The notes below the pieces were generated by a model, which worked only from the letters and a program-made list of their open reading frames with translations, had not been told where the DNA came from and did no database searches. From positions 992,001 through 1,056,000 of the forward strand of contig NZ_CAKAKO010000002.1 of assembly GCF_916700565.1 (NCBI RefSeq): a stretch of 64,000 nt of DNA. Reading direction: 5' to 3'. Positions 10,628 through 12,253 of the stretch are shown here, in pieces. The stretch's first letter is position 1, and each line of letters begins with the position of its first letter. The DNA comes from Xenophilus sp. Marseille-Q4582. GTDB lineage: Bacteria; Pseudomonadota; Gammaproteobacteria; Burkholderiales; Burkholderiaceae_C. The position numbers and the translations under genes are program-made.

Positions 10628-10704
10628 CGCGCGATGGAGCAGTCTGGTAGCTCGTTGGGCTCATAACCCAAAGGTCGCAAGTTCAAATCTTGCTCGCGCA
10701 ACCA
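10628..10704 (+). tRNA. Initiator tRNA-fMet (CAT); prophage integration target
   Basis: 77-nt cloverleaf with anticodon CAT and an encoded CCA end. It has the bacterial initiator marks: a C1:A72 mismatch at the top of the acceptor stem (needed for formylation), an A11:T24 pair in the D stem, and three G:C pairs (29-31/39-41) in the anticodon stem. The T loop TTCAAAT is normal. The gene stays intact in the lysogen because the attachment core is its own last 13 bases; what lies downstream is phage DNA. Confidence 0.97.
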
Positions 10705-12253
10705 CTCCCAGAGACCCCGCATTTGCGGCTGCCACAAGCAGCTGTGATGCGGGGTCTTTCAGTTTGGCCCAGCTCTCGCCGTTCTCATCGCGGCTGAGCG
10801 TGATTTCCCCCAGCAGGTCGGCCAGCGCAGCCCGAGCCTTGCCCACTGATGTTTCGCTGGCCACCAGCGTCTCGCGTAGGTTCAGCACCAGCTTCCGGTA
10901 CTTCGCCATGATGGCGCCCGCACTCGCAATGGGCGGCGGTTCGGCGGCGCGTGCGGCCTGAAGCGTCTTCTTCTCCAGCTCTGCCGCACGTAGCCGATCG
11001 GCCAGTGCGTCGCTGCTGCCCACGGCCACGATAGCCTGAACGATGCGCTCGATCTCCTTGTCCAGCTCTGCGGCACGGCGCACGGCCGCAGCCCGCGCCT
11101 GCTCGTGGCCGCTGTCCATCTCGGTCAGCAGCCGGCGAACGACTTCCTCGACTTCGGCAAGCGCGCTGGGGGACAGGAGGTCTTCGCGCAGTTCGGCCAG
11201 CAGCCGATAGTCCACATCCTTCCGCGTCCAGGTGGACGAGTTGGCGCAGGCCGTCGGGCCCTTGTCCTTGTGCGCGCTGCAGCCGTACCGGAGCGCGCTG
11301 ACGGCGATCACCGGGCCGCCGCATGTTTCGCAGCGCAGCAGGCCGCCGAAGAGCGTCGTCGTCGGCCGGCCGTTGCCTGACCACTTCTTGCGCTGGACCG
11401 GCCGGGTCTGGTCCCACAGTTCGTTCGTGATGATGCGCAGGTCGGGCTGTTCGCGCACGACCCATTCCGCGCGCGGGCGTGGGACCGCCTGCCGCTTCCC
11501 AGTGTCGGGGTCTTTCAGCCACTGCCGGCGGTTCCACACGACGCGGCCGATGTAGATCTCGTTGTTCAGGAGGCCATCGCCCATTGCGGGCGAGCCGACC
11601 AAGGCGCTTGCCGCCCAGCCAGCGCCGCGAGGGCTTGGGACGCCGCGCGCGTTCAACTCATAGACGATGCTGCGCAGCGTGGCGCCCGCCGCGACCTGCT
11701 CGAAGATCCATCGGACGTGCTGGGCCTGGGCCTCGTCGATGACGATGCGCCGGCCGCCTGGAACCGTCTCGCTTGAGTAGCCGTAGGTGCGCCCGCCCGC
11801 AGCCATGCCGCGCTCAAACTGCCCCTGCAGGCCTCGGTGGGTCTTCTTCCGCAGGTCGTCCAAGAACAGTTCGTTCACCAGCCCGCGCGCGATCCGCATG
11901 ACCTTGCGTCCGGACGCCTGGCTGTCGTAGCTGTCCGCCGTGCCGATGATGCGGATGCCGCGATGCTCCATGCGCTTCACCACCGCTTCCTGCTCGGCCA
12001 GGTCGCGCGTGATGCGGTCCAGGCCCTCCACCAGCAGGACATCGAAGCGTTCGGCTAGCACGTCGGCCATCAGCGCCTTGCCGCCGGGCCGCAGGGTCAC
12101 GGGCGTGGACCCGCTGATACCCTCGTCGGAATGCGCGGCCACGATGGGCCAGCCCTCGCGCGCGGCGCGCTCCCGGCCGGCGCGCAGCTGGTCCTCGATG
12201 CTGTTCTGATTCTGGTTGTCGGTGCTAAACCTGGCGTACAGGCAGACTCTCAT
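10661..12253 (-). CDS. int: Large serine recombinase (phage integrase)
   Basis: 530 residues. The order is: resolvase catalytic domain (about 1-145, nucleophile S10 in YARFSTDNQ, conserved DRITRD), recombinase domain (about 155-270), Cys-rich zinc ribbon (CETCGGP...YGCSAHKDKGPTAC), then a coiled coil. It joins attP and attB by a Ser-linked double-strand cut. The gene is the last of a leftward run and reads through the attL core into the antisense strand of tRNA-fMet, stopping in the anticodon loop (10661-10663). The last nine residues (RFELATFGL) are therefore host DNA. In the excised circle the same frame continues for 18 other residues to a stop at 49918-49920, giving 539 residues. Serine integrases rarely use tRNA genes. 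Confidence 0.95.
   Translation of the reverse strand: MRVCLYARFSTDNQNQNSIEDQLRAGRERAAREGWPIVAAHSDEGISGSTPVTLRPGGKALMADVLAERFDVLLVEGLDRITRDLAEQEAVVKRMEHRGIRIIGTADSYDSQASGRKVMRIARGLVNELFLDDLRKKTHRGLQGQFERGMAAGGRTYGYSSETVPGGRRIVIDEAQAQHVRWIFEQVAAGATLRSIVYELNARGVPSPRGAGWAASALVGSPAMGDGLLNNEIYIGRVVWNRRQWLKDPDTGKRQAVPRPRAEWVVREQPDLRIITNELWDQTRPVQRKKWSGNGRPTTTLFGGLLRCETCGGPVIAVSALRYGCSAHKDKGPTACANSSTWTRKDVDYRLLAELREDLLSPSALAEVEEVVRRLLTEMDSGHEQARAAAVRRAAELDKEIERIVQAIVAVGSSDALADRLRAAELEKKTLQAARAAEPPPIASAGAIMAKYRKLVLNLRETLVASETSVGKARAALADLLGEITLSRDENGESWAKLKDPASQLLVAAANAGSLGVVARARFELATFGL
10692..10704. repeat. attL core, 13-bp direct repeat
   Basis: GCTCGCGCAACCA, the 3' end of tRNA-fMet, recurs exactly at 49976-49988. 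Allowing two mismatches the match extends leftwards by AATC. This is the left junction of the prophage. The core also codes for part of the integrase on the minus strand. Confidence 0.9.
10712..10757 (+). terminator. Phage-supplied hairpin after tRNA-fMet
   Basis: AGACCCCGCAT (10712-10722) pairs perfectly with ATGCGGGGTCT (10747-10757), an 11-bp stem followed by TTCAGTTT. It lies where the native tRNA terminator would be and also inside the last codons of the integrase gene on the other strand. The T-run is weak, so termination efficiency is uncertain. Confidence 0.5.

Follow-up and report, generated by a model that had tools for sequence, protein, structure and literature searches.

What becomes of a phage integrase when the phage attachment site lies within the integrase gene itself? 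This question is raised by a prophage in the 64-kb stretch of Xenophilus DNA analysed here (the window), where a large serine recombinase is encoded across the attachment core and into the 3′ end of a tRNA-fMet gene. Serine integrases are widely used DNA-insertion tools, and the direction of their reaction is set mainly by an added factor (RDF).

Two endings of one integrase at tRNA-fMet

The window integrase harbours the domain set of large serine recombinases (resolvase, Recombinase and a zinc ribbon with coiled coil), with the Pfam families PF00239 (Resolvase), PF07508 (Recombinase) and PF13408 (Zn_ribbon_recom) above cut-off. In the model of the prophage form, residues 362-411 and 415-436 are predicted as long helices. 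The reading frame crosses a 13-bp core, GCTCGCGCAACCA, which recurs at the other end of the prophage (10705 to 49975) and has no third copy in the 64-kb window when up to one mismatch is allowed. In both forms of the protein the frame passes through the core and then continues into the phage P arm (free phage) or into antisense tRNA-fMet (lysogen). The lysogen frame comprises 530 residues with the end ARARFELATFGL (RFELATFGL). Joining the phage ends by script yielded 539 residues with the end ARAGFVSERLIHIPKALNKSG, the tail being GFVSERLIHIPKALNKSG, and a stop codon at 49918-49920. Residues 1-521 are common to both forms, and integration exchanges the last 18 residues for 9. The scripted join and the lysogen frame agree with a preliminary description of this locus, which had placed the core in frame within the integrase, had let the lysogen frame end on antisense tRNA-fMet at the anticodon and had given the phage form the same length and stop. 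The attP of the window phage is a deduction from attL and attR; in it, position 49975 would be joined to the core and CTCCCAGAGAC would lie on the core's other side. We conclude that integration rewrites the C-terminus of the recombinase.

Taken alone, the 13-mer core is weak evidence, because at least two matches also occurred in 11 of 100 shuffles when one mismatch was allowed. The integration site at tRNA-fMet is real, and it is backed by facts that are independent of the 13-mer. A genus-wide search found the tRNA locus in all 15 genomes. In five insert-free sister genomes (L031, L032, L033, L036 and L037) the flank directly 3′ of the tRNA matches the sequence right of 49988, which begins with ATTCCAGAAATGCAGAAGGCCCTCGAAAGAGGGCC, and this match includes the terminator GGCCCTCGAAAGAGGGCC. 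Flank scores were 27-30 at the five empty sites, compared with 7-8 at four occupied sites. Six more distant genomes (L038-L042 and L044) show a host-type terminator after the tRNA and align poorly to the window flank (8-15). An int-like sequence follows the tRNA in 4 of the 15 genomes, namely the window's own, G071, G1154 and G1155; G071 and G1154 are the same across the int-like stretch and may be one strain sequenced twice. A trait of serine integrases is likewise found at the site: a short common core (13 bp) is flanked in attP by arms that form inverted repeats, GTCTC-N34-GAGAC, as judged by eye.

From a scan of ten prophage ORFs we could recognise terminase, portal, head protease, major head protein, tape measure, primase/helicase and a CI-like repressor. 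No RDF candidate was named, the scope being one small ORF of unknown function. The head maturation protease (31688-32554) is separate from the protein encoded at 48845-49909. The prophage also carries a tRNA with anticodon CAT (27257-27333), which is not the same as the host fMet and could represent a Met or Ile tRNA of the phage. As to the target, a 31-base fMet pattern with three mismatches allowed had one match in the genome (5.5 Mb, 13 contigs, 99.99% complete), at the window tRNA; judged by this pattern, tRNA-fMet 10628-10704 therefore appears to be the genome's only initiator tRNA gene.

Table 1. Features of the integrase, its attachment sites and the target tRNA gene in the window
Feature	Position	Strand	Remark
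tRNA-fMet	10628..10704	+	attB in 3′ end
Integrase (int), prophage form, 530 aa, large serine recombinase	10661..12253	-	ORF and Pfam domains
Prophage-specific tail RFELATFGL and stop	10661..10690	-	coded by antisense tRNA, stop at anticodon
attL core	10692..10704	.	13 bp common to attR; coincides with tRNA-fMet 3′ end
Hairpin in int 3′ end, tRNA strand	10710..10759	+	predicted replacement terminator, weak T-run
GAGAC, right attP arm	10711..10715	.	inverted match to GTCTC, by eye; same position in several relatives
Last rightward prophage gene before attR	48845..49909	+	best match: family of unknown function; weaker: ClpP-like head proteases
Phage-form tail GFVSERLIHIPKALNKSG and stop	49918..49974	-	part of int only once joined to core in attP
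GTCTC, left attP arm	49956..49960	.	34 bp from GAGAC in joined attP; by eye
attR core	49976..49988	.	second core copy
Host terminator of tRNA, displaced to attR by insertion	50004..50025	+	57-base stretch 49989-50045, z -6.5

The overlap among relatives and the occurrence of both forms

Relatives were collected from viral contigs (in most scans the best 80 matches), from the GTDB contig collection and from whole genomes (searches of 399, 399, 369 and 15 genomes, overlaps not removed). The first set of 263 entries contained 175 unique integrases, and 165 after ten without a stop had been left out. Among these listed matches the core is in frame in 152 of the 165, with 98 ending in antisense tRNA and 54 not; of the remainder, four end in variant or other antisense tRNA, and nine that have no recognised core were left out of the 54. 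From a second, more distant set of 69 integrases, five without a stop were likewise left out; of the other 64, 27 + 8 are prophage forms and 11 are phage forms, and no core was recognised in 18. Combined, 202 of 229 unique integrases with a stop, again among the matches listed, cross the core or end in antisense tRNA (loci from the last viral scan, which mostly repeated earlier records, and from a further 398-genome search lie outside the 229). Judged by sequence comparison, the int/attP overlap is kept across a large family, and the search for related integrases ending on antisense tRNA that had been proposed for this locus was strongly positive.

By tail pattern (n = 137), the stop lies 44 nt into the antisense tRNA in 116 prophage forms and 22 nt into it in 19, and two are other cases. 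The peptide of the third antisense tRNA frame, which would run on open, was found in none of the 229; outside this set, the end of L487 resembles that third, open frame. One integrase (L024) ends antisense to tRNA-Glu as identified by ARAGORN, and two more (L192 and L279), judged from their tails, end antisense to other tRNAs. Therefore, the overlap is not limited to tRNA-fMet. Three integrases from the 18 without a core (L348, L370 and L374), uncounted above, also end in what appears to be another antisense tRNA. Two core-derived 'VAG' stretches are present in the C-terminus of L172, L347, L407, L484 and L490, and some of the double-'VAG' relatives have a relic phage-type tail before the second core. 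We regard the double stretches as signs of repeated C-terminal accretion.

Both endings can be followed beyond the window. attR, and hence attP, was deduced for 13 relatives in addition to the window, the assignments of G541 and G174 resting on matches of 9-11 bp; attR was not found for G468 and is doubtful for G920 and G541, and G607 has no attL. In viral records we found 65 phage-form integrases, and the host fMet pattern was absent from 29 of 30 records tested. Exact 127-bp terminal repeats occur in 7 of 20 phage-form records drawn from these 30, and the seven are therefore circular assemblies. L112, with a prophage tail, and L113, with a phage-type tail, share 99.6% identity, with two differences in the first 480 residues; going by these two sequences, one integrase occurs with both tails. 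The contig of L113 (IMGVR_UViG_3300005563_001252) encodes L113 and L147, two related integrases on one strand, and probably represents tandem prophages. Since this second integrase lies on the same strand, L113 may occupy the inner position in a tandem pair, and some phage-type tails, that of L113 at least, probably do not come from free circles. The tail of L314 is closely similar to that of L113.

Probable selection on the tail and the proposed roles of the integrase 3′ end

As an explanation we propose an int-embedded attP, a phage tail that is partly selected, a swap that curbs re-integration, and a compact module of int, attP and terminator. To this explanation as a whole we assign a probability of about 50%. 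In it, a large serine integrase gene holds its own attP at its 3′ end, and the enzyme made on infection, the phage form with its own tail, would recombine attP with attB. The phage tail may extend the DNA-binding zinc domain by a short strand at the C-terminus and thereby aid the integrating enzyme. Integration swaps this tail for a tRNA-coded one, presumably flexible, and the resulting prophage form may be less apt to integrate again while being kept for RDF-assisted excision on induction. The integrase gene of a single lysogen can code for the prophage form only, hence this form would have to serve excision together with the RDF. On the other strand, the int 3′ end would supply the tRNA 3′ end together with a new terminator for the initiator tRNA, so that int, attP and target repair would constitute one module. 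Any influence of the tail swap on integration or excision is what we infer.

Alternatively, the swap could be a neutral by-product. In that case selection would have acted on the compact int-attP module with its tRNA 3′ end and terminator, and the conservation of the tail would stem from the arms of attP. We consider this possible, albeit the less probable course. It has in its favour that the GTCTC and GAGAC arms code for part of the tail, a part of which is thus fixed as DNA, and that the prophage tails are read in two frames (116 at +44, 19 at +22). Codon usage in the phage-form tails bears on the same point. We compared 16 non-overlapping pairs of phage-form tails, whose members are unshared, albeit of not fully independent descent. 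Synonymous and non-synonymous codon changes stood at 47:106, compared with 21:121 and 21:118 in the shifted frames. By codon position, the differences numbered 66, 72 and 95 within the tails (n = 233; p 0.01 for the third position), as opposed to 159, 158 and 160 after the stop (n = 477). The codon-position measure is weak, because known int coding sequence before the core (same pairs, ungapped) gives only 151, 157 and 175 (n = 483; p 0.097). Beyond the first 24 nt of the tail the values are 39, 34 and 50 (n = 123; p 0.054), and four further tail pairs point in the same direction without reaching significance (14, 18 and 23; n = 55; p 0.12). The excess of synonymous change amounts to a modest signal, a modesty that suits the by-product account. 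However, synonymous excess and third-position bias within the tails, absent after the stop, speak against that account, as does the fact that the frame of 152 of 165 integrases remains open across a variable C-terminus and does not close ahead of the core. We conclude from these comparisons that selection probably acts to some extent on the protein sequence of the phage-form tail.

Many phage tails end in a short alternating, strand-like pattern, for instance RRRIRV, RRLRL or EPVRIPL. Since the distance of this pattern from the core varies and both core frames yield it, the attP arms alone are insufficient to account for it, which is a further point against a neutral swap. A motif T1, [RKH][IVLFY].[IVLFY], chosen after sight of the first 54 phage tails, is present in 35 of these 54. 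Shifted frames contain T1 in 8 and 3 cases, antisense frames in 2, 13 and 2, and the sequence after the stop in 4, 1 and 4. As a general tail motif T1 had to be rejected: on an unseen distant branch it was found in 2 of 11 tails vs 2 and 1 in shifted frames, a failure that favours the by-product account. A looser pattern, T2, likewise occurs in 35 of the 54 tails (7 and 3 in shifted frames; 8, 5 and 4 after the stop) and, where tails use the other core frame, in 8 of 9. T2 was written after the distant set had been seen, so that its count there (6 of 11, with 2 and 2 for shifted frames and 1 each beyond the stop) is descriptive; two of these 11 tails consist of RGT alone and perhaps do not mark true junctions. 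Of the sound attPs read after the tests had been fixed, G1397 is without either motif and G1469 has both. The doubtful 10-bp matches gave neither motif in G920 and both in G541, though the latter had been seen earlier. Twelve earlier-deduced attPs, which had been seen before the motifs were written, contain T1 in eight cases and T2 in seven. The phage tails of the window and its two nearest relatives contain neither T1 nor T2, and ERL(I/V)xIP is common to all three. Positive tail charge was also rejected as a signal: 47 of 54 tails have a charge above zero, but 37-41 of 54 are also positive after the stop.

AlphaFold placed a terminal strand at residues 528-531 of a phage-form integrase (L098), with pLDDT 80 in the last block (531-533), 55 in the preceding block and <50 at 505-525, before the strand. 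In the model of the window prophage form, residues 501-530 all have pLDDT <50; a helix of low confidence is placed at 501-510, and the region contains no strand. The two models are not of the same protein, the alignments behind them are shallow (9 and 13 rows) and their pTM is low (0.42 and 0.35), and the contrast between them is therefore suggestive only of a phage-form terminal strand set against a strandless prophage tail. One might go further and assume an enzyme-intrinsic direction switch across a widespread serine integrase family, in which the zinc domain would need the strand for attP x attB synapsis and the unstructured, tRNA-coded tail that replaces it would favour RDF-assisted excision. 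This generalisation appears doubtful to us. If it were true, the recombinase sequence itself would record whether its DNA is integrated.

On the tRNA strand, the window hairpin has a predicted energy of -37.2 kcal/mol (z -5.0), and its 3′ side ends TCTTT, followed by CAGTTTGG. A standard terminator scan missed it because the loop limit of the scan is 8. When 11 of 190 family members had been dropped as duplicates or for N, leaving 179, a terminator-like hairpin within 90 nt after CCA on the tRNA strand was found in 93, the window's included. The controls gave 16.5 for dinucleotide shuffles, 36 for the int strand of the same stretch and 17 at 300 nt deeper in int; the int strand exceeds the shuffles because a hairpin is symmetric, as expected. 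Among prophage forms 72 of 115 have such a hairpin, a larger share than the 21 of 64 among phage forms. Six near relatives keep a hairpin, and both sides have changed in 4 of 19 pairs with an unfavourable covariation term of +1.39 kcal/mol, which makes covariation among them modest. A single DNA stretch thus appears to have four roles, as integrase 3′ end, attachment site, tRNA 3′ end and predicted terminator. Under the by-product account the terminator overlap (93 of 179) alone offers a reason for the position of int, and it is equally a component of the explanation we prefer.

On the minus strand (10500-10704), the lysogen integrase gene reads antisense into the sole apparent initiator tRNA gene. 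A simple scan of 10500-12600 detected no terminator-like site on this strand, and antisense RNA through tRNA-fMet is therefore possible on induction.

It would also be conceivable that one of the tails is a degradation signal, and that integration alters the amount of integrase and not its chemistry, as for the repressor of phage BPs. The viral BPs repressor is reported to have an ssrA-like tag and the BPs integrase a C-terminal proteolysis signal (PMC4557955), and A is the last residue in 17 of 54 phage tails, where in 9 cases the residue before it is hydrophobic. As the other 37 do not end in A, and the window tails end in KSG and FGL, such a stability switch seems unlikely. Most improbable is a mis-called junction, with attL and attR from different elements or a chance 13-mer as the core: the shuffles do show that two such matches can arise by chance at one mismatch, but the outer flanks are matched by the empty sites of five sister genomes, packaging, head, tail, replication and repressor genes sit between the cores, and the same geometry recurs in relatives, whose circular records contain the joined form.

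Comparison with known integration systems

That integration can rewrite the end of an integrase is already known from Myxococcus phage Mx8, where attP lies within int and integration results in a recombinant int with a new 3′ end and an active product of modified specificity (PMC6070905). The Islander study lets the Mx8 and SSV integrases extend across attP, treats Mx8 Int as a tyrosine recombinase and states, as of 2014, that no integrases other than those of the tyrosine type were known to use tRNA genes as targets (PMC4383910). Mx8 IntP and the window integrase share an attP in the int coding frame and a C-terminus changed by integration. Mx8 IntP is, however, a tyrosine recombinase, whereas here a large serine recombinase exchanges a shorter tail at an initiator tRNA gene. 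In Mx8 Int, a 112-residue tail is reportedly replaced by 13 residues.

The preliminary description had drawn a parallel to mycobacteriophage integration-dependent immunity. This analogy is apt, but Mx8 (PMC6070905), the nearest precedent, was missing from it. For BPs and relatives, the source describes an attP in the repressor gene, a C-terminus changed by integration, both forms being made, and a reported function (PMC4557955). Here as there, attP lies in a phage gene and integration alters the C-terminus of its product; in BPs the repressor is altered, whereas here attP lies in int and it is the recombinase that changes. An attP in the repressor gene, which defines integration-dependent immunity, was not found in the window prophage, and its CI-like repressor (20375-21166) lies away from attP.

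The archaeal suicidal integrases of SSV1, pTN3 and pT26-2 are described as tyrosine recombinases split in two by integration (PMC8371274). They resemble the present system in having the att site within the integrase gene and in being a compact module. In contrast to these split genes, the window integrase, of the serine family, keeps 521 of 539 residues in one open frame (530 codons). Ralstonia phage phiRSM1 has a serine recombinase of the resolvase/invertase type, with a 13-bp tRNA-Ser end as core and attP between orf14 and orf15 (PMC4471427). Both systems thus combine a serine recombinase with 13 bp of a tRNA gene end as core; the phiRSM1 enzyme is small, with attP beside and not inside int and tRNA-Ser as target, whereas here attP lies in a large int at tRNA-fMet. 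The family described here provides large serine integrases at initiator tRNA genes, and phiRSM is a small serine exception to the tyrosine rule. In M. abscessus, 16 of 29 attB sites are at tRNA or tmRNA genes, all reported for tyrosine integrases (PMC10654092).

A literature search that did not extend to most subscription papers found no serine integrase with attP in its own frame. To our knowledge, attP is not inside the int coding frame in SPbeta, Bxb1 or phiC31 either. The present family offers natural pairs of enzyme forms with which the role of the C-terminus can be probed. By sequence, the SPbeta (YokA) and Bxb1 integrases belong to the same large serine integrase family, and a fold search against SPbeta, Bxb1 and phiC31 (structures 9dxh, 9iu2 and 9rah) gave a family match with whole-chain TM-scores of 0.2-0.4, which are low because the domains are placed differently.
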